The notes under the pieces: model-generated
Databases searched by the model: none
What the model was told of the DNA's origin: nothing
Seen by the model: only the letters and a program-made list of their open reading frames with translations
Origin: Mucilaginibacter arboris
GTDB lineage: Bacteria; Bacteroidota; Bacteroidia; Sphingobacteriales; Sphingobacteriaceae
Direction of reading: 5' to 3'
DNA: 64,000 nucleotides
Assembly (NCBI RefSeq): GCF_009754915.1
Contig: NZ_WPIK01000003.1
Location: 62,001-126,000, forward strand
Shown here: piece after piece, positions 12,038 to 54,272 of the stretch
How the letters are laid out: every line of letters starts with the position of its first letter
Position numbering within the stretch: position 1 is the stretch's first letter
Made by a program: the position numbers and the translations under genes

Positions 12038-12604
12038 TCAATCTTCAATTTGTCTTTTTCTAACCTTTACCGCAGGGTTTCCCTGGTAAACAAAATATGC
12101 TTCCATGTTTTTGGTAGCGATGCTTCCGGCAGCTAAAACCGCATGTTCATCAGCATAAACATTCGGACAAACTATTGCTTTTGCGCCAATCCAAACACCA
12201 TTTGCCAAAAAAATCCCACCGGTAATTAGATCAAAGTTTTTTTTAGAATAATTATGATTGCCGGTAAGCAGCACTGCACCTTGCGACAAGCAAACATTTG
12301 CACCAAATTTTACCGGAACCAAGTTGTCGATCCAAACTTCTTCCCCAATCCAGCTAAAATCGCCAACGGTTAAAAACCAGGGGAATTTAATATTGAGCCG
12401 ATGCCTGACTACAACGTTTTTTCCAATTTTCGAACCAAACATCCGCAGTAAAAAAACTTTGAAACCTGAAGATGGGAAAAAAGAAGTTTTAAAAATAATT
12501 GCACTGATGTAGAACCACAAAATACGTTTCAACCAATTTGCCCCCGGCTGATAATTGTGGTTTTGATATTCTGCTAAATTTGTTTTTCCAATCATCTTTG
12601 CCAT
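12038..12604 (-). CDS. WcaF-like colanic acid-type acetyltransferase
   Basis: A left-handed beta-helix acyltransferase of 188 residues, with an N-terminal hydrophobic segment (LKRILWFYISAIIF) and hexapeptide turns from about residue 60 (IGKNVVVRHRLNIKFP, VGDFSWIGEEVWID, GVWIGAKAIVCPNV). It resembles WcaF, which O-acetylates exopolysaccharide precursors. The donor should be acetyl-CoA; the acceptor is unknown. It is the last gene of the minus-strand polysaccharide cluster and overlaps the end of the glycosyltransferase-exosortase gene by 13 nt. Confidence 0.85.
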   Translation of the reverse strand: MAKMIGKTNLAEYQNHNYQPGANWLKRILWFYISAIIFKTSFFPSSGFKVFLLRMFGSKIGKNVVVRHRLNIKFPWFLTVGDFSWIGEEVWIDNLVPVKFGANVCLSQGAVLLTGNHNYSKKNFDLITGGIFLANGVWIGAKAIVCPNVYADEHAVLAAGSIATKNMEAYFVYQGNPAVKVRKRQIED

Positions 12605-14010
12605 GCTTCTTTTATCGTACTTTTTTCTATAAAGAAGTATAATGTTAGGGCAATTAATACATAAATTATCCCGTTAAAAACAGTATGGTGGTTAATCCTG
12701 TCCATTTCTTCGCCTTTCCAATATAAAGCAAGCAGCATAAAACGTAAAATGTTAAGTAATTGAAACCCAATTATACAACCAATCCAAAGTTGTATCCTGG
12801 ATTTGATTTTTGTTGGAAAAGTTAGGGCAAATGCAGTTAAAAAACTCATCACGCCCAAACCCAAACAATCATACGCAAGGTTAATTTTGTTGTAACCAAC
12901 AGCCATCAGCGAGTAACTATTGATTTTGGTTTGATATCCGAATAATTGCAAACCTGCCGAACTGCTATCGAGCAAAAAGTTGCGGAGCCATTGGATATAG
13001 TTAAAATGCTGCGATAAAAAAGCATTGTAATTTCCGCCTGGTTGCATTAAACCGTTATAAAAAAGGTTGGACCCATAGAAAATTGCAAATAAGAACAAAA
13101 AATGAAAGGCGAATTTAATTGCTGGTTTCTGAGATGAAATTTGTTTAATTTTTTGATTTGGTTCCTGCTTCTGCATCAATTCATCTATTTTTACATCTAC
13201 CATCAGCCTGAACCAAAATCCTTGTAAAAAATGAAAGATAATGCCTTTTTTACCGTCCAAAAATCCGCGTTGAATAATTAGCCGGTAAAAGAAGTATATC
13301 AGCGGGCGCCAGTAGCGAGGTAATTTCCACCAGATATTTTTTAGCCAGGCTGTTCTTTCATCGGGCGTTCCTCCAAACTTTGGTTTTAAAGTTTGCTGCC
13401 TGATTTTTTGCATACGTTCTACTTCTTCAAAAGCTAATAAATCACTGTAATTGTTATGTTTATCGATCCAAAATCTGATCTGGTTTTCTTTTAAATTTTC
13501 TTCGCGGAGATAGCCATCTTTCCAAATAACCGTTTTGCCGGGCGCAATAAAACGATGGTCCATATTCTCGTTCAGATCAGAAAAACCAACATCATACCGG
13601 AACATTTTTAACTGATAAAACGGATAATAACCGCCATGCTTGATCCAACTTCCCTTAAAATAATTTTTTCGGTTGAAGTAGATGCCATTTACTTCGGAAA
13701 ATTGCTGCTCCTCAAAATTTTGCAGCCGTAAAAGAAGCTCCGGAGAAACCTGCTGATCGGCATCCAGACAAATTACCCAAGGTGTTTTGATGTCGAAATT
13801 TTTAAGTGCAAAGTCCCATTGTTTAGGATGGTTTTTGAAAGGATGAGAAGCGGTAACAATATCAAACTGTTTACAAATAGTTAAAGTTGCATCTGTACTT
13901 CCTGAATCCAAAATAAAAACAGGTGCATTTAAAGTTTGGATAGATTGCAGCAAGCGCGGCAAATGTACTTCTTCATTAAAAGTAAGAATGATGAAAGAAT
14001 ACGGCCTCAT
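12592..14010 (-). CDS. Glycosyltransferase family 2 fused to an exosortase (XrtY-like)
   Basis: Residues 1 to about 260 form a GT2 domain (YSFIILTFNEEVHLPRLLQS, ILDSGSTDATL, CLDADQQV) like WaaE/KdtX-type sugar transferases. After a polar linker, residues about 300-470 are a multi-pass membrane domain with the exosortase/archaeosortase triad: Cys in AYDCLGLGVMSF, Arg in LLNILRFMLLALYW and His in NHHTVFNGIIY. Exosortases are transpeptidase-like membrane enzymes tied to exopolysaccharide loci. The start at 14010 is preferred over 14034 because the latter overlaps the upstream gene and lacks family similarity. The extreme C-terminus (IKEAW) is encoded by a dispersed motif (12603-12616). Confidence 0.88.
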   Translation of the reverse strand: MRPYSFIILTFNEEVHLPRLLQSIQTLNAPVFILDSGSTDATLTICKQFDIVTASHPFKNHPKQWDFALKNFDIKTPWVICLDADQQVSPELLLRLQNFEEQQFSEVNGIYFNRKNYFKGSWIKHGGYYPFYQLKMFRYDVGFSDLNENMDHRFIAPGKTVIWKDGYLREENLKENQIRFWIDKHNNYSDLLAFEEVERMQKIRQQTLKPKFGGTPDERTAWLKNIWWKLPRYWRPLIYFFYRLIIQRGFLDGKKGIIFHFLQGFWFRLMVDVKIDELMQKQEPNQKIKQISSQKPAIKFAFHFLFLFAIFYGSNLFYNGLMQPGGNYNAFLSQHFNYIQWLRNFLLDSSSAGLQLFGYQTKINSYSLMAVGYNKINLAYDCLGLGVMSFLTAFALTFPTKIKSRIQLWIGCIIGFQLLNILRFMLLALYWKGEEMDRINHHTVFNGIIYVLIALTLYFFIEKSTIKEAWQR

Positions 14011-14020
14011 TTTATAGTGA

Positions 14021-15172
14021 TTAAGCAGTTGCAATTACTGCCTGATATAACTCCAAATACTGTTTAACCAACTGCCCGTCCGCAAAATCCTGTCGGATTT
14101 GCTTTGGAGATTGCAAGCGAATTTCATCAAGCCATTGTCGGTTACTGTTAATTTTTATCAATTGCTCCTTAAGCATTTTTGGCTGGTTATCAAACGTCCA
14201 ACCTAAATAATTACGGTTAACATAAGCTGCCAGCCCGACATTGCTGCTGATTAAAACTGCAGTTCCAACAGCCAAAGATTCGATTACCACATTGCCAAAG
14301 TTTTCGTTATACGAAGGAAGGACTAGCAAATCATGTGCTTGCAATACGTTGAATTTATTTTCGTATTCCTGAAATCCAATCCAACTTACAAAAGCTTCCA
14401 TGCTTCTTTTATGCACTATTTTTTTGAGTGAGTTGATGTATTCCGGTTCGCCGGTCCCGGCAATCGTTAATAAGTAAGGAAAGCTGATTTTATCCAAAGC
14501 TTCCAGCAAAATTTCTAAGCCTTTTTTAGCTTCTATCCTCGATAAGAAAAGCAGTTTCAGTAGAGTAGTTTTATCAGTTGAAACTTGTTGGGGAAGTTCT
14601 GGAAGACTGATAAAATTAGGGATTATTTTAATCTGTTTTGGATGAACGAGGCTGAGAATTTCCTGTTTTTCCTGCTCACTTGTAACGTGGAAACAGCAGT
14701 TGGCAAGTAATTTTTTGCCTGCTAAAAAATGCATCCATTTTTTAACCAGATGATGTTTATTGCCGAAAGAATAACTGCTTAATGTTCCTCTGGGCGATAA
14801 AACAACCGGCACTTTTTTAATTTGTGCGATCAGGCAAGCCAAAACAGAAACCAGGTTCCACCAGGCATGAATATGGATAACCAAAGGTTCATCTGTTTTT
14901 TTAATTGCTAAAAAAAGATGTTTTAACAAGGCTGGAGAAAAATGAGAATGATCTTTGGTAAGCCGTTTAAAAAAGCGGACTGCCACGCCTTCAATCCAAG
15001 TTATTGCTCCCGCAGTAAAAGAAAGTTCTGATTTACCGTTGGCTAATGTGGTTAATACTTCCACTTGCAAACCGCTTTTAACCAGTTCTTCGCTTAGTTT
15101 AGAAACAGACATGGTTGGCCCGCCGTAAACTACAGCAGGTTTATAAGATGCACTGATCTGGATAATTTTCAA
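14021..15172 (-). CDS. Glycosyltransferase family 4 (exosortase-locus type)
   Basis: A 383-residue GT-B enzyme. The N-terminal SASYKPAVVYGGPTMSVSKLSEEL loop binds the acceptor side, and the C-terminal domain holds LLFLSRIEAKKGLEILLEAL and the E-x7-E motif in PSYNENFGNVVIESLAVG. The N-terminus resembles the XrtY-associated glycosyltransferase described in Sphingobacteriaceae, which fits the adjacent exosortase fusion; that match is from memory. It overlaps the Wzy-like gene by 4 nt and lies 10 nt before the fusion gene. Confidence 0.85.
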   Translation of the reverse strand: MKIIQISASYKPAVVYGGPTMSVSKLSEELVKSGLQVEVLTTLANGKSELSFTAGAITWIEGVAVRFFKRLTKDHSHFSPALLKHLFLAIKKTDEPLVIHIHAWWNLVSVLACLIAQIKKVPVVLSPRGTLSSYSFGNKHHLVKKWMHFLAGKKLLANCCFHVTSEQEKQEILSLVHPKQIKIIPNFISLPELPQQVSTDKTTLLKLLFLSRIEAKKGLEILLEALDKISFPYLLTIAGTGEPEYINSLKKIVHKRSMEAFVSWIGFQEYENKFNVLQAHDLLVLPSYNENFGNVVIESLAVGTAVLISSNVGLAAYVNRNYLGWTFDNQPKMLKEQLIKINSNRQWLDEIRLQSPKQIRQDFADGQLVKQYLELYQAVIATA

Positions 15173-16578
15173 TCGGCTTTTTTAAGGATACGGATGATAA
15201 ACAAGAACCGGGCAATGAGCAGCATGGTGATGTAACTCCAGAAAACAGAGTTTAGCAAAAATTCAAAACTCAGGCCGCGCCATAAAAACTGGAACAAACC
15301 CGAATAAATTAAAGCTGTACCTAAAATATATCCGCCAAAAAGGCTTTCTGCTTTTAACGCAATAAGCTGGGCAACAACGCCATATAGAAATAAAATCAGG
15401 AAAATGCCAATTCCGCCTTCAAACAGATAAGCATCGGCAATCAGCGCAGGTTTGGCAGAAACGTTCATTCCTTCAGCAGCGATTCCGGCATTGTAAACAC
15501 GTTTCATCACCAGATCTTCTGTGTTTGGTTTGTTTGGCCAAAATACACGTGGTATTAAAGATTGAACAGATTGGCTGATCATTTTCATTTCATAAAAATC
15601 AACAGTTTTAGGAGTGGTTTGAAGATATTTGATGAGCATATCAATCTCACTCAACCTGAACACCAAAAAGCCCCAGTTGCTGTATTTTACTTCTTCTGAG
15701 TTATCAAAAGCAGCGTTTAAAGCAATTTTTGAAGCTGCTTCGGCAGAAAGGTTTCCCGACCAGGCGTTTTGCCTAAAAACCTGGTTGTAGGTTGGCAAAA
15801 CCATAAAAATAAGCAGGAGCAAGGGCACAAAAATAAAGGTTACGGTACGTTTATAAACCGGATAAAGGAAAATAGCCAGTACCAGCAAGCTTACTATAAT
15901 AGGTTCTTTATATCCTGATAAAAACGATTTGTAAAAATTAAACAAAAAAAGAACGCCCGAAATAATAATGTTAGGCAATTGCTGAAGCGGAATGGCAAAA
16001 GCCAGCGCCAGGGTTGCTGCAATAAAGCTTAAAGCGGTAAATTGTGTAGAAACCTGCTCTAAACCGGGAACAAAAGCAAAAAAAGCCGAAACCAGAACCG
16101 TAATAACAGCGATGTAAAGCAGCAGATCGGCAAGGTTAACCGTTTGTAAAATATACTTTTTTTTAACCGGATAATTCATAAAAAGCAAAATACCGGAAAC
16201 AAAAACAGCATGGCCGAGGCAGTAATAACGCTGACATTGCGCAATCAGGATTAGTTTTTTGGGATCGGGTTTAAATAAGTGGTTTAACAGATGGAAGTTT
16301 TCATAACCAATTGTATCCAGGTAATAAAAAATGGTAGAGCAGCACATATAACCGGCAAAAATTAATTGCGTTAAAAATAGTGGCCGCATTAATTGTTCGC
16401 CCAAATTCCGGTCGGCTGGTATTGGTTTAACCCATCCGGTCATGGTTATTAAAAAGATAAAAAACGACCCGGACCAGGCAACCAAATAGGAACTTTGAGG
16501 AAAAGAGCTTAAAATCCAGGAAAATATCCAGGGAAGATAAAGCACAAAAAATCTTTCAATACGGATTGGATTACGCAT
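15169..16578 (-). CDS. Wzy-like polysaccharide polymerase, integral membrane protein
   Basis: A 469-residue, highly hydrophobic protein with about ten to twelve membrane segments (for example IFSWILSSFPQSSYLVAWSG and TVTFIFVPLLLLIFMVLPTY) and a large extracytoplasmic loop around residues 270-370 carrying VFWPNKPNTEDLVMKRVYN. Topology and position next to an exosortase suggest the exosortase-Y-associated Wzy-like family, which should polymerise lipid-linked repeat units. Sequence motifs of Wzy proteins are weak, so the call rests on topology and context. Confidence 0.75.
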   Translation of the reverse strand: MRNPIRIERFFVLYLPWIFSWILSSFPQSSYLVAWSGSFFIFLITMTGWVKPIPADRNLGEQLMRPLFLTQLIFAGYMCCSTIFYYLDTIGYENFHLLNHLFKPDPKKLILIAQCQRYYCLGHAVFVSGILLFMNYPVKKKYILQTVNLADLLLYIAVITVLVSAFFAFVPGLEQVSTQFTALSFIAATLALAFAIPLQQLPNIIISGVLFLFNFYKSFLSGYKEPIIVSLLVLAIFLYPVYKRTVTFIFVPLLLLIFMVLPTYNQVFRQNAWSGNLSAEAASKIALNAAFDNSEEVKYSNWGFLVFRLSEIDMLIKYLQTTPKTVDFYEMKMISQSVQSLIPRVFWPNKPNTEDLVMKRVYNAGIAAEGMNVSAKPALIADAYLFEGGIGIFLILFLYGVVAQLIALKAESLFGGYILGTALIYSGLFQFLWRGLSFEFLLNSVFWSYITMLLIARFLFIIRILKKAD

Positions 16579-17731
16579 ATGCTACTATTTTTTCCTGCAT
16601 GGCCTTTACCGCGTTTATAAAATTCCAGTTTTTAATGATCTGGGCAGAAGCTTGTCCGTATTGCTTCAGTAAAGCTTTATCCTGACATAAAAACTGTAGT
16701 TTTTGGGTTAAATCATCTGCATTTCCCGATTGAAAAATTGCGCCGTTTTCCTCTTCCAAAACTAAATCTGCTGCACAGCCAACTTTATCAGAAACTAAAA
16801 CTGCTTTTCCGCAAGCCATGGCTTCGTTTACGGCCAAGCCCCAGGTTTCGCTGTTCGAAGAAAGGCAAAACAAATCGCAGGATTGATAAATAAATGGCAT
16901 AGCAGACTGGTTCTGAAAATCCAGAAAATGAATGTTCGATGCTGTTTTTAGCAACCTTTTTTTTGCCTGCAGTTTTTTTTCCAGCGGCCCGTTTCCAACT
17001 AACAGCAAATGTGTATTTTGCTGGTTTAATCTTTCTAATCCTTCCAGTAGTAAAGCTGCATTTTTCACAGCTTCGAACTTTCCGGCAAAAAGGATTAAAA
17101 TACCTTCATCTTCAATTCCAAGTTTTTGTCGAAGTGATGCTGCTTCTGCTGATCGATCTTCTGCAAACCTCTCATTATCAATAGCGTGAGGAGCAAAAGT
17201 AAGCTGATATGGCTTCAACCCAAACTTTTTAAAATAATCCTTATTGTTTTTGCCGACAAAAAAAGCATGATCAACCTGTTTATAAACCCATTTTAAAAAA
17301 AGGTTTTTTAAAGTAGCTTTCCATCCCGAAGGCCGGTTTAACAAAGTAGAATCACCGCGAAAAAAAACAGGGATTTTTCCTTTAAAATAGCAAATTGCTT
17401 TTAAATGGGCAAGATATGCCCAGCCGTAAACCAAAACGGCATCAGCTTTCCAGCTTTTAATTTCTTTGATCAGATCTGGGTTTTTAATCCCCAGGAAACG
17501 ATCAGAACCAGGATTTTTAGCTGTATTTTTTTGAAACTGGTACGGATAACCTTGCAGCAATGGAATATCCCAGCTAATGCTTCTGCCAAAACCAGGGTCT
17601 GTTTGTTTTAATCCGGCTTCTCCCAAAGTATAAAAAACCTTGATCTCTATTTTTTTTTGCTGATGCAGCAGGCTAAAAACAGGCGCATAATATTGAATAG
17701 GATGTGTGGTGATGATTGCCAGCCTTTTCAT
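16571..17731 (-). CDS. Glycosyltransferase family 4
   Basis: A 386-residue GT-B enzyme starting MKRLAIITTHPIQYYAPVFS. The donor-binding domain shows LILFAGKFEAVKNAALLLEGL and the E-x7-E signature in SNSETWGLAVNEAMACGKAV. It overlaps the Wzy-like gene by 8 nt and the next upstream gene by 4 nt, so translation is probably coupled. A sister-type dispersed motif (16938-16953) encodes LLKTAS inside it. Sugar specificity cannot be read. Confidence 0.85.
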   Translation of the reverse strand: MKRLAIITTHPIQYYAPVFSLLHQQKKIEIKVFYTLGEAGLKQTDPGFGRSISWDIPLLQGYPYQFQKNTAKNPGSDRFLGIKNPDLIKEIKSWKADAVLVYGWAYLAHLKAICYFKGKIPVFFRGDSTLLNRPSGWKATLKNLFLKWVYKQVDHAFFVGKNNKDYFKKFGLKPYQLTFAPHAIDNERFAEDRSAEAASLRQKLGIEDEGILILFAGKFEAVKNAALLLEGLERLNQQNTHLLLVGNGPLEKKLQAKKRLLKTASNIHFLDFQNQSAMPFIYQSCDLFCLSSNSETWGLAVNEAMACGKAVLVSDKVGCAADLVLEEENGAIFQSGNADDLTQKLQFLCQDKALLKQYGQASAQIIKNWNFINAVKAMQEKIVAYA

Positions 17732-19020
17732 CCTTTAACTATTGCTTCAAAAATTTCTACCTGCTTGCGCACCATTTGCCTTGCCGTAAATTCTTCAAAT
17801 GTTTTACGGTCAAGAGAATTTTTGGTTGTAGAAAATTTTGCCCAATGGTTTAAAGTTTCTCTGACTTGTTGTTTTGCCTTAACAGGATTGTCCGGGAAAG
17901 TAATAACAGAACTGTGCGGGGAACAAGAGCGGATAATTGGAACGGCGCTGCTTTGCTGATGAAAAATAGTCAGCAAAGGTTTTTGCGCCATTAAATAAGG
18001 ATAAATTTTTGAAGCCGTATATTGAGGATCATTGGAACCGGGAATAAACAAAGCATCGGCAGCAAGCAAAGTATTAATGGTGCTGTAAAAACCGATGCGA
18101 TCTGTAACTTCTGTAACCTGTTTTTCTACGCCGCATTTTATTGCGAGAGGAAATATAGTCTGTTTCGCTAATTCTTTGGGAGCATAACTCGTTCCGATAA
18201 AATAGAGATGAAGTTTGCTGAACACTTCCGCTTCATCCTGCAATGCTTCTTTTAAGGCATAAAAAAGTAGTTGAACTGCGGTTTGCATATCTGCACCTCC
18301 GCGGCCAACATAAACCACATTAAAATTATCGGAGTTGAATTGAATTGCCGGCGGACAAGTTGCTATGTTTTTTTCGGCTATCTCAAAATCTTTTTCAAAA
18401 GCGCCAAAAGGAATTACCGCAGCAGGTTTGTTTTTGAGCTGCGGATAACGCTGTTGTAAAGTATCGATATAAGCCGGAGAAACGCTGATTAAACCATCGC
18501 ATTTTTTCATGGCAATTGGTTCCAGATATTTGTGTAAACGATAGGAAAACCAGTATTTTGGCGGACGTTCTTCTTTTGGTTTATCCTGATAATAAGTTGA
18601 ATGCCACGCATCCTGCATATCAATTACATAAGGAACAGCAAAACGTTTTTTCCAGTAAGCGCCTAAAACGCAAACCGGAAACTCTGTTGTAGAAAAATAA
18701 ATCAGGTCGTATTTTTTTGCCGGTAAAAGAAGCATCACTTTTTTATGGTAGAACCAGAGCGAGCGTAAAGCCAAGCTTCCCAAACCGAATTTGGAAGTCC
18801 ACTTTTTAGAAAAAGCTTTAACCTGATGAACGATCACATTTTTCGGAACGCTTTGCAGCAGCAATTCATCTTTCGGTATTTCCGAATATTTTTCATCCAC
18901 ACAAACTACTTCTGCTTCCCAGCCAAAATCTTTAAAAAATGACAAGCTCATTCTAATCCTTTGGCTGTCAGCCAAATTAGAAGGAGGGAAATAAGGTGAA
19001 ATAATAAGAACGCGTTTCAA
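17728..19020 (-). CDS. Glycosyltransferase (GT-B, family 4-like)
   Basis: A 430-residue protein opening MKRVLIISPYFPPSNLADSQRIRMSL, the usual GT4 N-terminal strand and glycine-free acceptor loop. The mid-region holds YVIDMQDAWHSTYY and FNVVYVGRGGADMQTAVQLL. The classical E-x7-E motif is replaced by PQYTASKIYPYLMAQKPLL, a variant shared with the next gene upstream. It is translationally coupled to both neighbours by 4-nt overlaps. Two dispersed motifs lie inside (18243-18254 and 18724-18736). Confidence 0.8.
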   Translation of the reverse strand: MKRVLIISPYFPPSNLADSQRIRMSLSFFKDFGWEAEVVCVDEKYSEIPKDELLLQSVPKNVIVHQVKAFSKKWTSKFGLGSLALRSLWFYHKKVMLLLPAKKYDLIYFSTTEFPVCVLGAYWKKRFAVPYVIDMQDAWHSTYYQDKPKEERPPKYWFSYRLHKYLEPIAMKKCDGLISVSPAYIDTLQQRYPQLKNKPAAVIPFGAFEKDFEIAEKNIATCPPAIQFNSDNFNVVYVGRGGADMQTAVQLLFYALKEALQDEAEVFSKLHLYFIGTSYAPKELAKQTIFPLAIKCGVEKQVTEVTDRIGFYSTINTLLAADALFIPGSNDPQYTASKIYPYLMAQKPLLTIFHQQSSAVPIIRSCSPHSSVITFPDNPVKAKQQVRETLNHWAKFSTTKNSLDRKTFEEFTARQMVRKQVEIFEAIVKG

Positions 19021-20264
19021 ATAGCGATTGTTTCTTCTACAACTTTTAAAAATTTCAGGCTTTCGGTTTCCCAGTTTAAATCGTTGCGCGCAGCTTTAAA
19101 AGCTTCTTGTTTTGTTTGTAGTAATAAACCTGGTTCGTTAATCAAGCGTTTTAAAATAGCTGTCAATTGTTGTCCGTTTCCTTTTTCGTAACAAAAACCT
19201 AACGCTGGATTTTTATTTATAAATTGTTTTTGTGCTGTTGTATCACTTGCAACAACCGTAAGTCCTGCTTGTAAATAAGTGAATATTTTATTGCTGAGGG
19301 CAACGTTGTTATTGAGGGAAAAGCCAGGTTCAAGCGCAAGTCCAACATCAAATTGTGCAGCAAAAAGTGGTATTTTATCCGGGTTAATGGGTTGATGAAA
19401 AACTATATTAGGCTTATTTGCGAACTGTAATTCCTGAATTATTATATCCAGTTGTTTTCTTGTTTCTTTATCTATAAAACCTAATAAATGCAGTTCAATC
19501 TGTTTATCTTCCAGAAATTTTAATGCGGATAAAACATCCTGCAAACCGCGGTTTAAACCAATAGTTTGCGAAAACCAGAAGAGTTTTAAAGGTTCCGCTG
19601 CTTTAACAGCAGGTAACGATACTTCTTTTACCACAGGAAAAGCATTAAGCACGGTAACAGCTTTTTTTGAAGGGAAAAGCTGCTGATAAAGTGCTGCAAT
19701 AGCTGGGCTGCTGGCTGTTAAATAATCAGTCTTAGGAATGTATTTTTCTTCCAGAAAAGTTTTTAACCGAACATCCATGTGGTACGGATTATTTGTGATT
19801 TCATTTCGGTGAAAATCCTCCGCATCAAAACCACATTTAGCTTTATTTTTTTTAGCTGCGATGACTGCAACCGGCAAAGCTGCCAGGTTATGTGCTATAT
19901 ATAAATCGGCACGTTGCCGCAATGCATCTTTTAACAGTAAGAAAGTGCACCTGCTTAATGACCTTTCTGCAAGCCAGTATTTAAAACCGACCAGCTTAAT
20001 TAATATTTTTACTGCTTTATGCCGAACTCTTGTTATCCAGTATAAAGCTTTATGTGTTTCCGGAGTGCCTCCAATACGAATAGCGTTCCATTTTTTTACA
20101 GGAAGTATTTGTTGATCTATTTCTGTTCCCCAAGCGTTCCAGTACTGGTAAATTACTGTAACCTTATACCCGGATGTTGTTAAAGCATCGGCTTCTTTTA
20201 CCAAACGCGGATTAAGTGCTGGCTGGCCGGACGTGACCAAAACGATATGAAAAGTAGCCTGCAT
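19017..20264 (-). CDS. Glycosyltransferase (GT-B, family 4-like)
   Basis: A 415-residue protein with a GT4-type N-terminus (FHIVLVTSGQPALNPRLVKEADALTTSGY) and a donor domain with LKLFWFSQTIGLNRGLQDVLSAL. In place of E-x7-E it has NNNVALSNKIFTYLQAGLTVVAS, like its downstream neighbour. It starts 3 nt after the stop of the upstream glycosyltransferase and overlaps the next gene by 4 nt. A dispersed motif (19619-19630) encodes VKEV. Confidence 0.8.
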   Translation of the reverse strand: MQATFHIVLVTSGQPALNPRLVKEADALTTSGYKVTVIYQYWNAWGTEIDQQILPVKKWNAIRIGGTPETHKALYWITRVRHKAVKILIKLVGFKYWLAERSLSRCTFLLLKDALRQRADLYIAHNLAALPVAVIAAKKNKAKCGFDAEDFHRNEITNNPYHMDVRLKTFLEEKYIPKTDYLTASSPAIAALYQQLFPSKKAVTVLNAFPVVKEVSLPAVKAAEPLKLFWFSQTIGLNRGLQDVLSALKFLEDKQIELHLLGFIDKETRKQLDIIIQELQFANKPNIVFHQPINPDKIPLFAAQFDVGLALEPGFSLNNNVALSNKIFTYLQAGLTVVASDTTAQKQFINKNPALGFCYEKGNGQQLTAILKRLINEPGLLLQTKQEAFKAARNDLNWETESLKFLKVVEETIAI

Positions 20265-20267
20265 CTT

Positions 20268-21296
20268 TTAATGCGTATTATCAAAAATATTTAAGTATTG
20301 CCGGGCAATAACTTTTATATCAAATTTTGCTTCTGCTCGCTTTTTGCAAATGTAACGGTCAATAAAAACAACTTTATCTACAGCATTAATCATTTCATTT
20401 ATAGTGTTTACGATTAAACCAGTAATACCTTCTTCTATCACTTCAGCAACAGAACCTTTTTTAAAACCAATAACCGGTGTTCCGCAAGCCATTGCTTCAA
20501 TCATTACCAATCCAAAAGGTTCGTTCCATTCGATTGGAAAAAGCAATGCTTTAGCTTTCCTTAAATACTGATTTTTTTGAACGTTATTTAAGGCACCGAG
20601 GTAAATAATCTGTTTGCCATCAATATATGGCTCGATTTCCTGCTTATAATATTGATAGTTATCGAGCGTATCAGGTATATTTCCTCCAATCCATAAAGTA
20701 TGATTGGTTGCTTTTGCAACTTTAATAGCTGTATGTACGCCTTTAATTTTATCTAATCTTCCCAGAAACATTAGTGGTGCTTCTTTTAGCACCTGTTTTT
20801 GTATAAAGTAATCAGAAAAATTGATGGCATTATAAACAGTTCTCCAGTTTCCGGCAACATTTCCGGTAGAAACGCAATAGTTACTACAAGCTGTAAATAT
20901 TAAGTTTTTTGGGTTGAAGGTTGAAATTTTCTGAATCCCATTAGCAGAAACCCCTCTGCCATAAGTCATGATTTTCTTTACTGGATTTTTTAATACCGGA
21001 AGCAAATACAATAAGCGGCCAAAATTATGTATAACATCAAACTGGTTTCTTTTTAAAGTTAAAAGGTACCAGACGTATATTAACTCGCGTATTTTTTGAA
21101 TTTTTGAACGTTTTAAATCATTCCTGCCAAAAGTATAAACCTTTCCACTGATACTTGATTCTGGTCCGGCAAGCAGAGTAACCTGATGTCCCAAACGCTG
21201 GTATTCTTCAGCAAAAAGATAAACCAAGCGCTCATGTCCGCCATAAAATTCTGGTGGCACCGGAATACCTGGATCTGCTATTAACAGAATTTTCAT
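20268..21296 (-). CDS. Glycosyltransferase family 4
   Basis: A 342-residue GT-B enzyme. The acceptor-side loop PPEFYGGHERLVYLFAEEYQRLGH and the donor domain with E-x7-E in EWNEPFGLVMIEAMACGTPV are clear. MFLGRLDKIKGVHTAIKVAK is the typical inter-domain strand. A GCAC-type dispersed motif (20777-20792) encodes VLKEAPLM immediately before this strand. It lies within the minus-strand polysaccharide run. Confidence 0.87.
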   Translation of the reverse strand: MKILLIADPGIPVPPEFYGGHERLVYLFAEEYQRLGHQVTLLAGPESSISGKVYTFGRNDLKRSKIQKIRELIYVWYLLTLKRNQFDVIHNFGRLLYLLPVLKNPVKKIMTYGRGVSANGIQKISTFNPKNLIFTACSNYCVSTGNVAGNWRTVYNAINFSDYFIQKQVLKEAPLMFLGRLDKIKGVHTAIKVAKATNHTLWIGGNIPDTLDNYQYYKQEIEPYIDGKQIIYLGALNNVQKNQYLRKAKALLFPIEWNEPFGLVMIEAMACGTPVIGFKKGSVAEVIEEGITGLIVNTINEMINAVDKVVFIDRYICKKRAEAKFDIKVIARQYLNIFDNTH

Positions 21297-27910: not shown

Positions 27911-29695
27911 TTATGTATTAGCAGCAAAATGCAATGCAAGCAGTTTAGACCAGTGCATTTTATCCTGCAAAAAGCGTTGTGTAAAAGAAGCAACCGCAAG
28001 GTTTGTACTCGTATTTAACTTAACTGTAAGCGGATGTTGTTTAAGCCATTTTTGTAAAGGGAAAGAGAAACCCATTTTTTTTCTGTTCCAGATGGTTGCC
28101 GGCAATTGTTGCTGATAGCTGCGGACGAGTAAACCTTTAGCTAACTTTTTATCAAACCTTAAATTGCTGCTGATGCTGTTAACTGCAAGCAGAAATTCGG
28201 TATCTAAAAAAGGCATCCTTATTTCTATGCCGTGCTGCATGCTCATAGCATCGGTATCGCGCAGCAACTGGTTTTTCATGTAAAAATCCTGCTCTAAATT
28301 AGCAGCAAACAGCTCAGGGTTTGTTTCTGTAATTGCAGGGTATTTAAACTCACTAATTTTAGCCCATACTTCTTTTACCGGTATATTTAAGATAGCTGCT
28401 ATTTGATGCGGTGCAAAATAGCCACGCAAAGCAAGATAGTAGCCAACCTCGGAGCGGAGCGATAAATAGGCCAGTTTTTGATAAGCTTCTTTTGGAGATT
28501 GCTGAAACCACTTTAAAACACTTATTGATAATTGGCTTTCCATTTTTTTAAGCAAATGCATTCTTTTAAAAGATGGATAACCGCCAAATAGTTCATCTCC
28601 GCCTAAACCTGAAAGCACTGCTTTTAGCCCTTGTTTTTGAGCAAGCTTTGCTACCAGCCAGGTATTTATCCCATCGGCTGATGGTTGGTCCATTGCCTGT
28701 AAAATAGCTGTTGCCTGTTCGTTAAAATCTGCTGCTGTAATTTGTTGCTGCTGATGCCGGCTTCCCAGTTTTGTTGCCATGATCTGTTGAAACTTCGATT
28801 CATCATATCCTGCTTCTTCAAAAGTAAGCGATAAGGTATGTAAAGCCTTACCTTTTACTGCTGATGCTTCCAGGGCAATAATACCGGAATCAATTCCTCC
28901 GCTTAAAAAAACGCCAATCGGTGCATCTGCAATTAAATGCCGGTTTACGGCTTTGTGCAATTTTTGCTGCACCAGTTGTTCTGCTTCCTTCTGGTTGCAA
29001 ATTAATTGTACTGTTTTGGGTTGAAGATAGCTGCTGGTCCGATAAGTTTCCGCATCAATTTTCCACTCCAAGAAACTTCCTTTTGGCAGCATTAAAACCT
29101 GGTCTAAAATTGTGACAGGTTCGGGTATAAAACCAAATGCTAAAAAGAGTATTTTCCAGTCGGGCCGGTTCTGGCTAAAGCCGATTTCACGAAAAGCCCT
29201 GATTTCTGAAGCAAAAATCAGTTCTTTATTTTTAATATGATAATACAACGGTTTCATTCCGCTGCCATCCCTTACTAAAAAAACCTTTTGCAAACGTTTA
29301 TCATATAGGGCAAAAGCAAACATGCCGTTAAAACGATGGAAAGCATTTGTTCCCCAAGAAGCATATGCAACCAGGATAACTTCCGTATCAGATTTTGTTT
29401 TGAACTGGTAGCCAAGATTTTGCAACTCAGCTTTAAGTTCCAGGTAATTATAAATTTCGCCGTTAAAGGTAACCGTATAATTTTCCGTAATATCCTGCAT
29501 GGGCTGAGTGCCATCAGCAGAAAGGTCGATCAAGGCTAAACGGCGATGGCCAAAGCAGATACTGTTTTTATCAGCTAAAAATAATCCTTCGCCATCTGGC
29601 CCACCGTGTTGCATAGCAAGGCACATGCGGTTAACAAGTCGGCGTTTTTGATCTGCATGTGTATTTAAAGAAACCTGGCCTGCAATTCTGCACAT
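27911..29695 (-). CDS. asnB: Asparagine synthetase (glutamine-hydrolysing)
   Basis: A 594-residue two-domain enzyme. The N-terminal class II glutaminase starts with the nucleophile Cys2 (MCRIAGQVS) and GPDGEGLF, and the C-terminal ATP-pyrophosphatase domain has the SGGIDS loop in GVFLSGGIDSGIIALEAS (about residue 265). In polysaccharide loci such proteins often amidate sugar acids rather than make free asparagine; here that is inferred from position between the regulator and the glycosyltransferases. Dispersed motifs at 27982 and 28366 lie inside it. Confidence 0.92.
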   Translation of the reverse strand: MCRIAGQVSLNTHADQKRRLVNRMCLAMQHGGPDGEGLFLADKNSICFGHRRLALIDLSADGTQPMQDITENYTVTFNGEIYNYLELKAELQNLGYQFKTKSDTEVILVAYASWGTNAFHRFNGMFAFALYDKRLQKVFLVRDGSGMKPLYYHIKNKELIFASEIRAFREIGFSQNRPDWKILFLAFGFIPEPVTILDQVLMLPKGSFLEWKIDAETYRTSSYLQPKTVQLICNQKEAEQLVQQKLHKAVNRHLIADAPIGVFLSGGIDSGIIALEASAVKGKALHTLSLTFEEAGYDESKFQQIMATKLGSRHQQQQITAADFNEQATAILQAMDQPSADGINTWLVAKLAQKQGLKAVLSGLGGDELFGGYPSFKRMHLLKKMESQLSISVLKWFQQSPKEAYQKLAYLSLRSEVGYYLALRGYFAPHQIAAILNIPVKEVWAKISEFKYPAITETNPELFAANLEQDFYMKNQLLRDTDAMSMQHGIEIRMPFLDTEFLLAVNSISSNLRFDKKLAKGLLVRSYQQQLPATIWNRKKMGFSFPLQKWLKQHPLTVKLNTSTNLAVASFTQRFLQDKMHWSKLLALHFAANT

Positions 29696-30304: not shown

Positions 30305-32719
30305 TTAGTTAATCCAACGGCTGATTTTCCACCATTTGGGTGCAATATCATCCGAATAATAACCAGAACTTGCATAGCCATTATAATCTGTATAATAATA
30401 ACTTCCGGACTGGTCTTTTTTACCGGAAGTATAAATTCGGGAATGAAAGTTTTCCTCAGCATAAGCATTCAGGATAATAACGGTATTGTTTAAGCCGTAT
30501 TTACCAGAAAGCTGTTGTGGGATTTCGGCAGAGTAAAAAGAAGATTTTCCGGCACGGATTACAAAAATATTAATATCGCTCTGGCGGATAACCGGGATAG
30601 AATCAGAAACCAAACCAACCGGTGCAGTATCAATCATAATAATATCGTAGCTGGCTTTTAATTTTTCAATCAGCAGGTTCATATTTGGGTGATGCAATAG
30701 TTCCGACGGATTAGGCGGTACCGGACCGGAAGGTATAAAATCTATGTTCTCGTATTTGGTTTTAAAAATAATCTGTTCCATACCTATCTGGCCGGCCAAA
30801 AAGTTACTCAGACCCAACTGGTTGTCCTGCTGAAAAACATGGTGAAGCCTGGACCTGCGGAGATCTGCTGCAATCAGGATTACTTTTTTATCGATTAGCG
30901 CTAATGTACTGGATAAATTAACGGCAATAAAAGATTTGCCTTCGCCTGAAACTTCCGAAGTAATACAAATTACCTTGCTTTGCTTATCGGCAGCCATAAA
31001 ACTAAGGTTTGTCCGTACGGAACGAACAGATTCTGCAAAAACAGATTTAGGTTTAACCAATGATAAAATCTGGGTGTTGTTCTGGTCAAGCTTGTACGGA
31101 AACTTTCTGATCATACCAATTACCGGCACCTGTGTTATACTCTCTATTGTTTCTTTATCAAAAATATACGGATTTAGCATCCGTAACAATAAAATTAAAC
31201 CAGAACCAATGAACAGGCCAATTAAAATTGATTTTTGATAGATGCTGTTTGCATCAGGTGCAACCGGAATAAAATTAGGTTGTGCCTGTTCGATAATTGT
31301 AGCGCCGGCAAGGATAGAAGAGCGGCTGATCTGCGCTTCCAGTTTTTTTTCAGACAAAAAAGAATACACTTTATCGTTAATTTCAAAATCGCGTTTCAGG
31401 CTTACAATATCGCGTTCTGCTGTTGGTAATGCCGCCACCTGCTGGTTTGCCAACTGCAACTGGTTGTTTAAATAAGTAGTAGTTAGTTCAATGCGTTTAA
31501 CAGAAGCATTGATGTTGGCAAGCGCGGCATTACGTACTTCGGCCAACTGTTTATCAATTTCTGTTACCTGCTGCGATGCACTGGTATAAGTTCTAAGCAG
31601 GTCTGTTTTTTCTGAAAGCAACAGGTTGAAGCGTGTCAGCAGTCCGTTTAGCAGCGGGTCTACCGTTCCCTGCATATTTAAATTAAGGCTAACGGCATTT
31701 TTTTCGTTACTAATTTGTTGTTTCAGTTGGTTAATACCAATCAGTTGTATGTTTAATAAAGATTTTTGTGCTTCGGCATCCTGCACTTTACTGAGCATAA
31801 GTGTAGCAGAATTGCTGACATCAAAAACTTTTGAGCTCTTTTTATAAGCTTCCAAGGATTTTTCTGATGATTTTACCTGCTTGGAAAGATAATCGAGCTG
31901 GTTATCAATAAAAGTAATGATCTGGGAAGCCGAAAGCATTTTGCGGTTTCTGTCGAAATCCAGATATTCTTTCATAATAGCATTTAAAATATCCGATGCA
32001 AACTGTGGGTTAGAATCTGTTTCCTCTATGTTAATTACATTAGAATTTTTGATGGCCTCGCTGGTATTTAATCCGGCAGCTACACGCGGATAAAAATCTT
32101 CAGGCGAATTAAACCGGAAGAGGTAAACCGATTTTGGCTCAAAACGAACCTGGGAAGGATGCAGTAAAAAACTTGTTTTACCAATAATAATAGGTTGGTT
32201 ATAGGTAAAAATTGCCTTTATATCACGGTTATCAATTTTATAGCTGAGGCTGAACTTATCAGGATTTATGGCTTGAAAACTAATGAGTTCTTTGTAAAGT
32301 GTAGCACTATCTTCCTGCAAAATCTCGATGTCCAGCGGTTTGTCGGGATAAGTTTCATAGGTGCGGATGCGGCCAGCTATAAAAAAGCTGATTTTATAAT
32401 CCAGGTCTTTAACCGCATTAATAATCAGGCTTCGGCTTTTTATGACATAGCTTTCGCTTTGTACTTTATTAGTTGCGCGGTCTGCAGTGTTCATTACGCT
32501 TACCAGCTCAGAAATTTCCGATTTCTTTTCATCAAACTTCATTATCGCACTTGTAGCGTACGATTTTGGCGTGTACCACAAATACAATCGGCCAAGCAAA
32601 AAACAAAGCAGTACCGAAAAAGCAACCAGATACCACCTGCTTAAAATAACACGGAACAAACGCATATAATTAATGCTGTCATTCGGTTTTTGAGGATTGC
32701 TTGTATTAATTTCCTGCAT
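30305..32719 (-). CDS. Polysaccharide biosynthesis tyrosine autokinase (Wzc-like)
   Basis: An 804-residue co-polymerase/BY-kinase. A Wzz domain with a first membrane segment (LVAFSVLLCFLLGRLYLW, about residues 31-48) is followed by a long coiled region (300-450), a GNVR-like block, a second membrane segment (SILIGLFIGSGLILLLRM) and a cytoplasmic kinase domain: Walker A VSGEGKSFIAVN, Walker A' ILIAADLRRSRLH and Walker B IIMIDTAPVG. The C-terminus has a tyrosine cluster (SYYYTDYNGY, GYYSDD) for autophosphorylation. It should control chain length and export. No OPX (Wza) gene is next to it. Confidence 0.95.
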   Translation of the reverse strand: MQEINTSNPQKPNDSINYMRLFRVILSRWYLVAFSVLLCFLLGRLYLWYTPKSYATSAIMKFDEKKSEISELVSVMNTADRATNKVQSESYVIKSRSLIINAVKDLDYKISFFIAGRIRTYETYPDKPLDIEILQEDSATLYKELISFQAINPDKFSLSYKIDNRDIKAIFTYNQPIIIGKTSFLLHPSQVRFEPKSVYLFRFNSPEDFYPRVAAGLNTSEAIKNSNVINIEETDSNPQFASDILNAIMKEYLDFDRNRKMLSASQIITFIDNQLDYLSKQVKSSEKSLEAYKKSSKVFDVSNSATLMLSKVQDAEAQKSLLNIQLIGINQLKQQISNEKNAVSLNLNMQGTVDPLLNGLLTRFNLLLSEKTDLLRTYTSASQQVTEIDKQLAEVRNAALANINASVKRIELTTTYLNNQLQLANQQVAALPTAERDIVSLKRDFEINDKVYSFLSEKKLEAQISRSSILAGATIIEQAQPNFIPVAPDANSIYQKSILIGLFIGSGLILLLRMLNPYIFDKETIESITQVPVIGMIRKFPYKLDQNNTQILSLVKPKSVFAESVRSVRTNLSFMAADKQSKVICITSEVSGEGKSFIAVNLSSTLALIDKKVILIAADLRRSRLHHVFQQDNQLGLSNFLAGQIGMEQIIFKTKYENIDFIPSGPVPPNPSELLHHPNMNLLIEKLKASYDIIMIDTAPVGLVSDSIPVIRQSDINIFVIRAGKSSFYSAEIPQQLSGKYGLNNTVIILNAYAEENFHSRIYTSGKKDQSGSYYYTDYNGYASSGYYSDDIAPKWWKISRWIN

Positions 32720-32725
32720 CGTATT

Positions 32726-32956
32726 TTAAGTAAGAATATTAATAGAAAATGCAGTATTTGAACATGCCAAAACAGGCTGTAAATTATCTGAAAGCTTTTT
32801 TAAAGAATTAGTTTGTAGGAAACTAACAGGCAGCAGGTTTAAATGCTGCTTTACCAGCTTGTAGCTATTGTTTAATTTGGCCAACCGCACTTTATCAATA
32901 TATAAAATCTGTATTGCTTTTTCTGTTAATCTGCCTGCTTCTCCAATCATATCCAC
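32726..32956 (-). CDS. Small hypothetical protein
   Basis: A 76-residue frame with no recognised domain, beginning MDMIGEAGRLTEKAIQILYIDKVRLAKL. It ends 6 nt before the kinase start and overlaps the upstream ORF by 10 nt, the kind of coupling seen for real genes in this cluster. Composition is soluble and helix-prone at the start. It could be spurious. Confidence 0.45.
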   Translation of the reverse strand: MDMIGEAGRLTEKAIQILYIDKVRLAKLNNSYKLVKQHLNLLPVSFLQTNSLKKLSDNLQPVLACSNTAFSINILT

Positions 32957-33291
32957 AGATTTGTTTTATCTTTTAACAATAAGTAATTTCCTTTTCTACG
33001 TGCTTTGCCTAAAACGGTTACCTTTTGATTAATAATTTTAAGAGTGATTGCTGTTCTTGCTAATAAAACCTTTTTGCACTGGTTTTTAACTTTTTGTTGC
33101 AGCAACCGTATTTGGATTGGCCATGAAACAGACAAACTCTTAGCTGTAGATTTTATATTTTGCAGGTTTTGCGTTAAGCATCTATCTTCCGCAAAAATTT
33201 TACAAGCACAATTTAATGTACGTCGTATAGTATTAAATAATTTAAGCTGAAGACAAGCAACTAAAAAAAACAGTGCTAAAAGAAGCATCAA
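32947..33291 (-). CDS. Small hypothetical membrane-anchored protein
   Basis: A 114-residue frame with one N-terminal hydrophobic segment (LLLALFFLVACLQL) followed by a very basic, Lys/Arg-rich region and an all-beta-looking C-terminus (LLARTAITLKIINQKVTVLGKARRKGNYLLL). No family recognised. The first codons are encoded by a GCAC-type dispersed motif (33277-33289), so the start or the whole ORF may be accidental. If real, it is the promoter-proximal gene of the polysaccharide operon. Confidence 0.45.
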   Translation of the reverse strand: MMLLLALFFLVACLQLKLFNTIRRTLNCACKIFAEDRCLTQNLQNIKSTAKSLSVSWPIQIRLLQQKVKNQCKKVLLARTAITLKIINQKVTVLGKARRKGNYLLLKDKTNLWI

Positions 33292-34198: not shown

Positions 34199-35278
34199 AT
34201 GTTTCCATTTATCTATTATCTTACAGTTACTGGTGTTTCTATTTTGTTGGTACTAATTATTTTACCTTCAGTTATCCACATTGCACGACAAAACAATTTA
34301 TTTGATGATCATTCTGTTGACCGGAAAGAACACGGATACGGAATTCCACGCTTAGGCGGAGTTGCATTTTACATCAGTATTGTTTTAGCATCATTATTAA
34401 TAGCCAAAAACGGAACAGGGCTTCCTTTTTATGAACTCTATGCAGCAAGTATTATTTTATTTGCAATCGGTATTAAAGATGATTTATCTGGCGTGCATTG
34501 CCATACAAAACTGGCCGTTCAGGCATTGGTTTCTTATATTCTTACTGTTCCCGGTAACATCCGCATCACCAATTTGCATGGTATTTTTAATGTTTATCAA
34601 CTTGGCTATCTGCCAAGTGTTATTATTTCTATGCTGGTTATTATATTCATCATCAATTCTTTTAACCTGATTGATGGCATCGACGGACTTGCAGGAACGC
34701 TGGGCGTAATTGCTTCCTGCGCATTTGGCTTTTACTTTATGGTTGCCGGCCAAACCCAGTTAGCTGCCCTTGCTTTTTCTACTGGCGGTTCGCTTATTGC
34801 TTTTTTGGCTTACAACTATTCGCCGGCAAGGATTTTTATGGGCGATGCAGGTTCCTTGTTTATCGGAATGCTCTGTGCTGTTTTTGCCATCAAATTTATA
34901 TCGATAAACGAAGTATCGACTGTTTACAACCTGCCCGCTGCTCCTGCATTTGCGGCTGCCGTGCTGATTGTTCCTGCATTTGATACTTGCAGTGTAGTTA
35001 TTACCCGTATTTACAACAAAAAATCTCCTTTTAAGCCAGATCGTAACCACATCCACCACCGGATGCTGCTTTTAGGTTTAACACATCTGCAAACAACATT
35101 TATATTAGGCATTGTAACCCTTTTATTTATTGGTTTGGCACTAGTATTTAAACAGGAAGACAATGCTTTGTTACTGCTCCTTTTTGTGGCTATATTACTT
35201 TTGATGAATGGCTTATTAAACCACCTGCTGAGCGCAAAAAGCAAACAAGTATTCCAGGTTGGCAATTTAATAGGCTAA
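34199..35278 (+). CDS. WecA/TagO-like undecaprenyl-phosphate sugar-1-phosphate transferase
   Basis: A 359-residue polytopic membrane protein of the MraY/WecA superfamily with about ten or eleven helices. The catalytic landmarks are present: DD in KDDLSG, NLIDGIDGLAG, GDAGSLFIGM and the HIHHR loop (RNHIHHRML). It should load the first sugar phosphate onto undecaprenyl phosphate, making it the probable initiating enzyme for the neighbouring cluster. HIHHR distinguishes WecA/TagO from MraY. Confidence 0.9.
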   Translation: MFPFIYYLTVTGVSILLVLIILPSVIHIARQNNLFDDHSVDRKEHGYGIPRLGGVAFYISIVLASLLIAKNGTGLPFYELYAASIILFAIGIKDDLSGVHCHTKLAVQALVSYILTVPGNIRITNLHGIFNVYQLGYLPSVIISMLVIIFIINSFNLIDGIDGLAGTLGVIASCAFGFYFMVAGQTQLAALAFSTGGSLIAFLAYNYSPARIFMGDAGSLFIGMLCAVFAIKFISINEVSTVYNLPAAPAFAAAVLIVPAFDTCSVVITRIYNKKSPFKPDRNHIHHRMLLLGLTHLQTTFILGIVTLLFIGLALVFKQEDNALLLLLFVAILLLMNGLLNHLLSAKSKQVFQVGNLIG

Positions 35279-45898: not shown

Positions 45899-48800
45899 AT
45901 GAAGCAAAAATTACTTATTTTTTTTCTGTTTGCAGTTTTTTCCTTACAAGCTGCATTTGCACAAAACAGAAAAATCACGGGAACGGTAACGGGTGCCGAT
46001 GATGGACAGCCACTGCCAGGAGTATCTGTGAAAGTTACTGGGACTAACGTCGGTACTCAGACAGATAATCAAGGGACGTATAGTATTAACGTACCTGCAA
46101 ATTACAGATCGTTGACTTTTACTTATATAGGATATAGTGTAAGAACAATTCAGATAGGAAATCAATCTATTATGAATATAAGGTTAGCAACTAGCGCAAA
46201 CGCTCTTAATGAAGTTGTAGTTACAGGATATACAACAACTTCAAGGGATAAATCTACAGGTTCTGTAGGTAAAGTTACAGCTGCAAGTATAACCGATGTA
46301 CCGAATGGTTCATTTGATCAAACTTTACAAGGCCGTGTTCCAGGTTTATCTATTCTTGCTGGTTCTGGACAACCTGGCGCTAATGCCAATGTATATATTC
46401 GTGGTTATACATCAATAAGCGGCAGTACAACACCTTTGTATATAATTGATGGTGTTCCTGTTGAATCATCTGTTTTTGCCACATTAAATCCAAATGAGTT
46501 TGAAAGTATTGACGTTCTAAAAGATGCAGCAGCTACCTCCCTCTATGGTTCTCGTGGTGCAAATGGTGTTTTAGTCATTACTACAAAAAGAGGTAAGGCT
46601 GGTAAAACAACTTTTACGTACGATGTACAAGGTGGGTTTTCAGACCGTACACGTACAAAATTTGATATGATGTCAACCCAAGAATTACTTGCTTTACAGC
46701 AATCTGTTCATTTAGGTCCTGGTTATACCCTGTCAGCTGCAAATACTAATCCGGTTATTGTAACGATGAATGGACAACGTGTTACGCTTACTGCAGCCCA
46801 AAAGCAGCATGATCTTGATTCATTGGGTTCTATAAATACCCGATGGGATGATATATTTTTTCGCAGAGGTGCTTTTCAAAGTCATCAGCTAAGTGCTTCT
46901 GGCGGAAATGAAAATACCAGGTTTTATACAAGTTTGTCTTACTATTCACAGGATGGAATAGCACAAAGATCAAATTTGAATAGATATAATGCACGTTTTA
47001 ATTTGGATCATACGTCTGGTAAATTTAAAATGGGATTGCAAAGTGGGTTAGGTTATTCACAATCAAATTTTACAGAGTCTGAAGGAACTGTAACATTGGC
47101 TAACCCTTATGCAGCCGCTTATTTGGGTTTACCTTACGAAAATCCGTATCTTGCTAATGGAAGCGTCGCTACGTCTCTTTGGAGTGGTCAACCAACCTAT
47201 CCTTTTCCTCTTTTTGATAGCCGAACTGCATCAAATGCTTTAGCCCGTTTAAATGCAACTACAAATAGAAACAATCAAATAAAAGAAACTTTAGGATTAA
47301 ATGCTTCATATGAGTTTTTTAAAGGATTTAGCGTTAAAACAACTTTAGGTATCGATTTTAGAGAAACTGTTTTAGAAAGTTCGATTTACCCTAATACTTA
47401 TGTTGGTTCTACTGTCTCAAATGGTGGACAAGGAAGTTATTCAACAACTGATCAACGTAACCTTCAGCTAATTCAAACTTCAGGTTTACAATATAATAAC
47501 ACGTTTGGTAAGCATGAAATTTTTGCAACTGCATTAGCTGAAACCATTCATAATTGGTATCAAACATTTAATTATACTGGTTACGGAATAAATGCTGCTT
47601 TACTAAATACACCTGCAGGTATAACCGCTGGTACTTCTACAAATGGTGAGATACCAGCAGTTGGAGGTAGTAAAACTCAAAATGGTATCAATTCTTTGAT
47701 TGGTATTGCCCGCTATACTTATAATGATAGATATACTTTACAAGGATCATTTAGGCGAGACGGATCATCTCAAGTTGTTGCATCTAACCAATATCATAAC
47801 TTCTTTTCAATAAGTGGTAACTGGAATATAAAGAAAGAAGATTTTTTGTCTGCTATATCATGGATAGATGTATTGCGCTTAAGAGCAAGTTACGGTACTA
47901 CAGCTACTCCATTCGGTACTACTGGAACTTCTGGGAACTTTGGTTACCTTGCGTTGTATAATGCTCCTTCTTACGCAGGAACCTCTGGTATTGCACCTTC
48001 TACTCCGGGTAATCCTAATTACAACTGGGAATTTACTGCCCAGACCAATGTAGGTATTGATTTAAATGTATTAAAGAATCGTTTAAGAATCGTAGCTGAT
48101 ATATATCAAAAAGATACCCACAACTTATTTGTTCAACAAAATTTATCATACACATCTGGTTTCGCATCTCTACAAACCAATGCTGGTAAAATGCGTAATA
48201 AAGGTATAGAGGTAAGTTTAGAAGGTGATGTGTTAAGAGGTAGAGATTATGTGGTGACGCTTTTCGGCAACTTTGCATATAATAATAATAAAATTACTAG
48301 TTTAGGTCAGGTTAGTCAATTTGAGTCTGGTACTTCCATTATTCGTGTAGGTTTACCTTTAGGTTCTCATTATACTGTTAAATCAGCAGGAGTTGATCCC
48401 CAAACTGGTCAATATCTTTATTATAATAGAGATGGAAGCGTTACAAGTGTGTATAGTGCTTCTACCCAGAATGTTGCAGAGTTTGGAACATATTTAGCAC
48501 CTTATCAAGGTGGATTTGGTTTAAATGCTTCTTATAAAGGAATTTCCTTATCCAGCTTATTCAGTTATGCGCAAGGTTTCAAAAGGTTCAATAATCAGGA
48601 CTATTTCTTAGATAACCCAGCAAATGCTAGTTCATATAATATGGAAGAAATAGTTAATACAATATGGAGAAAACCGGGAGATATTACTACAATAGGCGCA
48701 ATTACTTCACAGCGACAGTTTAATTCTAACGATGTACAAGATGCTTCATTTGTACGTTTAAGAAATGTTAGATTGGGTTATTCTTTACCAAAATCATTGA

Positions 48801-48967: not shown

Positions 48968-48975
48968 ATAATAAA

Positions 48976-50442: not shown

Positions 50443-50491
50443 CTATTATTAAAAAAGGTTTGTAGGGAATTAATTAAAAACTTATATTTAT

Positions 50492-50525
50492 AAGGAGGCT
50501 ATTTAAAAAATAGCCTCCTTTTTTG
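50492..50525 (+). terminator. Terminator after the first susCD pair
   Basis: AAGGAGGCTATTT (50492-50504) pairs with AAATAGCCTCCTT (50508-50520) across AAA and is followed by TTTTT. It is a 13-bp perfect stem. Confidence 0.9.
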
Positions 50526-54260: not shown

Positions 54261-54272
54261 TAAAAATATAAG

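Follow-up and report, generated by a model that had tools for sequence, protein, structure and literature searches.

A glycosyltransferase–exosortase Y fusion in a polysaccharide locus of Mucilaginibacter arboris and a candidate C-terminal sorting signal for exosortase Y

The stretch of Mucilaginibacter arboris DNA analysed here (64,000 nucleotides; the window) carries a polysaccharide (EPS) locus in which a family 2 glycosyltransferase (GT2) and an exosortase are encoded by one gene (Table 1). An earlier note, made from the DNA letters, had described such a single polypeptide at 12592-14010. Its coordinates proved right: the plus strand of this interval has stops throughout, and the minus strand holds one uninterrupted open frame of 472 aa from ATG, in which both domains were matched by profiles. 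For the exosortase, which the note had placed at residues 300-470, the NCBIfam exosortase Y (XrtY) model NF046083 covers residues 295-461 (profile positions 2-168 of 168) with 197.7 bits, above the cut-off of 160. The protein also scores 32.3 bits with TIGR04178 (cut-off 23) and 22.0 bits with PF09721, Exosortase_EpsH, just under the cut-off of 25.7 (residues 338-459). The fusion is real and common in its group. An assembly error or chimera was ruled out, as many independently assembled genomes, two of them from the same genus, have the same fusion; it is also present in dozens of Mucilaginibacter and Pedobacter genomes.

Table 1. Genes, domains and residues of the fusion and its EPS locus, in window positions
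Feature	Position	Strand	Basis or remark
GT2-XrtY fusion gene	12592..14010	-	472 aa plus stop; single open frame and profile matches
GT2 domain, residues 1-285	13156..14010	-	PF00535; alignment; fold matches SunS, WrtF, TarP
Exosortase Y domain, residues 295-461, four predicted membrane helices	12628..13128	-	NF046083
Cys382	12865-12867	-	exosortase active-site residue
Arg423	12742-12744	-	exosortase active-site residue
His441/442	12685-12690	-	exosortase active-site residues
WcaF-family acetyltransferase	12038..12604	-	NF007797; overlaps end of fusion gene; conserved beside XrtY
XrtY-associated GT4 glycosyltransferase XYAG1	14021..15172	-	NF046085, 543 bits
XrtY-associated Wzy-like protein	15169..16578	-	NF046084, 689 bits
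Four further GT4-type glycosyltransferase genes, same operon	16571..21296	-	Pfam; order common to relatives
Asparagine-synthase-like amidotransferase	27911..29695	-	TIGR01536; TIGR03108
Wzc-type chain-length/tyrosine kinase protein, cluster head	30305..32719	-	TIGR01007
Wza-like exporter gene remnant, frameshifted and shortened	32747..33291	-	tblastn pieces
WecA-like undecaprenyl-phosphate sugar phosphotransferase, cluster head	34199..35278	+	TIGR02380 below cut-off; conserved position

The GT2 half is matched by PF00535 over residues 5-119 (E 1.1e-12; 48.7 bits, gathering score 23.3), and its D35 and D83-A-D85 (DxD) are invariant across 34 aligned fused homologues. Foldseek recovered a GT-A fold, with matches to the solved structures of SunS, WrtF and TarP (E 1e-6 to 3e-8), and the sequence match of this half was to GmaR. 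Although SunS/ThuS, TarP and WrtF share the GT2 fold, their identity to the fusion's GT2 is low (13-17%); thus, neither donor nor acceptor can be transferred from them. AlphaFold2 modelled the whole fusion protein with a pLDDT of 81.5 and a pTM of 0.62, and the XrtY domain alone with 89 and 0.81, respectively. Comparison of the XrtY fold with solved structures returned no informative match and no solved relative.

The Cys/Arg/His set recognised in the earlier note was borne out by alignment: Cys382, Arg423, His441 and His442 are invariant in the 34 fused homologues, and the same Cys, Arg and both His are kept in 45 XrtY domains, fused and separate. Hydropathy predicts membrane helices at about residues 297-321, 379-400, 406-432 and 441-463, and charge and hydropathy together put loop 401-406, which is basic, and the C-terminus on the same side of the membrane as GT2. 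From hydropathy and charge, rather than from coordinates, we infer that the four catalytic residues lie at the outer (periplasmic) face and that GT2 is cytoplasmic. With the active sites on opposite membrane faces, GT2 could therefore not modify a sorted or exported protein directly and would need an acceptor located in the cytoplasm, for example a lipid-linked precursor of a glycan. XrtY is the only real exosortase that profile search found in this genome; a second candidate (G000:C17:6479), a weak match, was rejected as the frame of an MFS-like transporter.

The earlier note had also likened the neighbouring GT4 and Wzy-like proteins to an XrtY neighbourhood, and the families NF046085 and NF046084 indeed adjoin the fusion gene, both above their cut-offs. 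The gene order XYAG1-GT2-XrtY-WcaF is constant among relatives, usually with Wzy. Further along the cluster, the amidotransferase, which is conserved in the EPS locus, has the XrtA/PEP-CTERM system amidotransferase (TIGR03108) as its second-best match, under that model's cut-off. The Wza-like exporter gene, a remnant here, is intact at the same place in a sister genome (G002, L249:12717-13460). Elsewhere in the window, positions 45899-55919 hold two SusC/SusD-like outer-membrane uptake pairs, recognised from sequence, which we take to be ordinary for Bacteroidota.

The system is thus a variant of the catalogued XrtY family, not a new kind: the match to NF046083 is full-length, the neighbour families are the same and the family, Sphingobacteriaceae, is the same. 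The difference is that the NF046083 model, at 168 aa, describes the exosortase part only, whereas the protein here adds GT2 in the same chain. Assignment to XrtX as the true family was rejected, with 47 bits for the XrtX profile (cut-off 170) and nothing above cut-off for the XrtX-associated NF046082. The XrtA/EpsH PEP-CTERM system shares with the XrtY locus an exosortase within an EPS locus, a related amidotransferase and secreted substrates with C-terminal tails; however, XrtA/EpsH has eight membrane helices against the four predicted in XrtY, the XrtY-linked tails described below have no PEP motif, and the XrtA-type model TIGR02602 was not among the matches of the fusion protein up to E 1. 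XrtF of Flavobacterium johnsoniae is, like XrtY, a short Bacteroidota exosortase (PMC10936215), but it belongs to a different family and is not fused, and the fusion protein scores 31 bits against the XrtF cut-off of 90. Deletion of XrtF in F. johnsoniae abolishes zorb formation, strongly lowers biofilm and reduces surface colonisation; its substrate is unknown (PMC10936215). Our literature search met no paper on XrtY or PID-CTERM and none joining an exosortase with Mucilaginibacter.

XrtY was found by profile search in 175 of 399 genomes of the Sphingobacteriaceae. Among 150 relatives it is mostly a separate gene of about 190-220 aa; proteins of 463-509 aa occur in eight genomes among the matches listed, including this genome and two of the same genus. 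Where XrtY is separate, the same GT2 (60-70% identity in most cases) almost always occupies the position immediately upstream. The best 80 loci in named genomes comprise 45 fused, 34 with adjoining separate genes and one without XrtY. XrtY is sometimes encoded away from this GT2, and a single locus has GT2 without XrtY; therefore, the two functions are separable. Two of the 34 separate loci, the two copies in M. phenanthrenivorans (L082:9932-11466, L083:9986-11466), look like fused genes broken inside XrtY, with the frame broken at the same place in both. In Pedobacter sp. BS3 (L115:10867-11554), GT2 and WcaF are kept and a small gene resembling a PIN-domain toxin replaces XrtY.

The sequences indicate that two genes of the catalogued XrtY polysaccharide locus have been joined (or split) repeatedly, because in most other genomes both adjoin in the same operon. 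A tree of GT2 domains calls for at least six changes between the fused and separate states, three of them forced by well-supported branches, with gain and loss not distinguishable and five long branches uncertain. The earlier note had proposed that the fusion would tether sugar transfer to a transpeptidase-like activity. This reading needs correction: with 45 of 79 best-matching loci fused and 34 of 79 formed by separate neighbours, the fusion is not unusual in the lineage, and since the separate form is as widespread as the fused one, tethering is not needed and the fusion is not essential. It may even be neutral, a stop lost between overlapping neighbours that left one chain with no gain. 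We put this at slightly less than an even chance, and it is compatible with the other readings discussed below. The interchange of the two states on the GT2 tree (at least 3-6 times) speaks for neutrality, as does the overlap, by tens of bases, of the GT2 and XrtY frames (taken stop to stop) in many separate loci. Set against these is the finding that entire Mucilaginibacter clades have kept the fused state and have conserved both halves.

According to the proposal summarised in PMC7468200 and PMC12188702, an exosortase cleaves its substrate close to a signal motif and couples the freshly made end to some unknown compound. The earlier note had recommended a search for C-terminal sorting signals. 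Candidates are indeed present, by profile search, in this genome and its relatives. The PID-CTERM model NF046080, linked to exosortase X, describes a short tail made up of a P-[I/L/V]-D or P-I-N motif, a membrane helix and a basic end, and gave two sub-threshold matches in XrtY genomes; these are small secreted proteins, once three in tandem, in which CP[LIV]D is followed by a membrane helix and then a basic tail. The XrtY-linked tails are thus built alike, but the best of them reaches 24.4 bits against the NF046080 cut-off of 26, and the others scanned gave 15.6-16.6 bits or no match. Their motif is C-[PND]-[LI]-D, in most cases with an aromatic residue next, whereas tails of the LPIN type adjoin the XrtX-like gene of a genome with both exosortases. 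In that genome, which carries an XrtY fusion, two LPIN-type tail proteins lie directly upstream of the XrtX-like gene (L245:8370-10316; 132 bits, cut-off 170); therefore, XrtY and the XrtX-like exosortase appear to have separate clients. From these sequences, the cognate XrtY signal, new here, is probably C-[P/N/D]-[L/I]-D followed by a membrane helix and a basic tail, carried on small secreted proteins. Our searches came across no signal family that bears the name of XrtY.

Tails were sought by profile search of genomes. The first profile turned up further tails in genomes of the Pedobacter type, at a distance of about 35 kb from XrtY. The short form was scarcely detected, or not at all, by profiles A2 and A3 and was resolved by a combined profile, A5. 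Of the 28 best tail matches, 26 sit at the very end of a protein that has an N-terminal hydrophobic stretch, and the other two were not indexable. Gene maps of Pedobacter show the tail genes between the WecA/GT2 and Wza/Wzc genes, at the end of the EPS cluster opposite to XrtY. In Mucilaginibacter and the genus of this genome, the tail is borne by one very small protein encoded away from the EPS locus, and no sorting-signal protein was found within the 64-kb window. The single candidate of this genome (on G000:C67), 72 aa from ATG and ending CGDPDLDCPIDTPVILLVAAVLFLTVKKMTDAKQKLKNSR, was matched by A5 with E 5.3e-9; about 20 residues separate its signal peptide from its membrane helix. This CPID-tail gene lies 63 bases downstream of one for a 940-aa protein that carries a tail for type IX secretion (both genes at L200:10122-13244, G000:C67), and in each of the eight genomes examined a related large secreted protein is encoded next to the tail. 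The two proteins may work together.

The tail and XrtY are strongly associated. With A5, tails were detected in 176 of the 399 family genomes, namely in 161 of 175 XrtY genomes and in 15 of about 224 others; family-wide, 161 genomes have both, 14 XrtY only, 15 the signal only and about 210 neither. The profile had been seeded from XrtY-positive genomes, and after removal of these source genomes the tail is present in 147 of 161 XrtY genomes. Within the Pedobacter-type genus alone, the corresponding counts are 79/18/5/43 (p 6e-17). As the association holds within one genus having both states, shared ancestry at the family level alone does not explain it. The genes are also linked: in all Pedobacter-type genomes that carry both on one contig (n=50, about 5 Mb each), the distance from XrtY to the closest tail gene stays within 48 kb, with a median of 34 kb. 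Six of the 15 signal-positive genomes without XrtY have another exosortase and nine have no detected exosortase. The 14 XrtY genomes in which the profile found no tail belong mostly to a divergent Pedobacter branch; in two of them, the 60-kb stretches around XrtY (L241-L243 of G163, L246-L248 of G411) contain no recognisable tail protein, and this branch may use another signal. In tail-positive Pedobacter-type genomes, copies of XrtY were seen whose frame is split or contains internal stops (G303:C30:19591-20076, G246:C29:155509-156025).

The best explanation, to which we assign a probability of roughly 0.6, is a two-sided EPS enzyme of the inner membrane that combines glycan extension by GT2 with the sorting of tail proteins by XrtY. 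The steps proposed, including cleavage, transfer, the acceptor, and the GT2 donor and acceptor, are as follows. On the cytoplasmic side, GT2 would add one sugar to an undecaprenyl-linked EPS repeat unit. At the periplasmic face, XrtY would cut small secreted proteins at the C-[P/N/D]-[L/I]-D signal by a Cys-Arg-His thiol mechanism and hand the cut end to a nucleophile, most likely a glycan or glycolipid of the same locus. The fusion would place two neighbouring, co-inherited genes in one chain, bringing the steps together with neither depending on it. The amidotransferase resembling the XrtA/PEP-CTERM type fits XrtY processing and joining to a glycan, without proving it. Counting against the explanation are the decay of the local Wza-like exporter gene in this genome, the separability of GT2 and XrtY, the 14 XrtY genomes in which no tail was detected, the nine signal-positive genomes in which no exosortase was detected, and the seeding of the profile from XrtY-positive genomes.

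Transfer of the sorted protein onto a polysaccharide or lipid, which the earlier note had also proposed, is the part of this scheme for which plain proteolysis would give the same genomics. XrtY might then be a processing protease only, releasing tail proteins from the membrane and joining nothing, with the GT2 fusion irrelevant. The separability of XrtY and GT2 and the tiny candidate substrate of this genome, with its roughly 20 residues between signal peptide and helix, agree with such a role; the position of XrtY inside an EPS locus with the candidate substrates at its other end in Pedobacter, together with the conserved PEP-CTERM-like amidotransferase, argues against it, and we regard it as unlikely. 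Similarly doubtful is a fully coupled, membrane-spanning machine, in which a sugar would be added to a lipid-linked glycan in the cytoplasm and this glycan would then be bonded covalently, in the periplasm, to the C-terminal end of a small secreted protein; a polysaccharide-protein conjugate would thus arise at one place, with the tail as entry ticket. A role of XrtY in EPS assembly without any protein substrate, the tail proteins merely travelling with the locus, draws on the gene order linking XrtY to GT and Wzy genes but is very improbable, since in Mucilaginibacter and the genus studied here the tail gene still co-occurs with XrtY although it is not near the EPS locus but beside a type IX secreted protein.

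The main value of the fusion is that it led to a strongly supported candidate substrate class for XrtY, a likely partner for an NCBI-catalogued exosortase family without a published substrate in the literature searched. It has long been asked to what exosortases attach their substrates. A chain that unites an EPS glycosyltransferase with an exosortase, together with candidates of 72 aa here and in multi-gene arrays in culturable Pedobacter, makes this question directly testable, as the candidates are of a size suited to intact-mass measurement.
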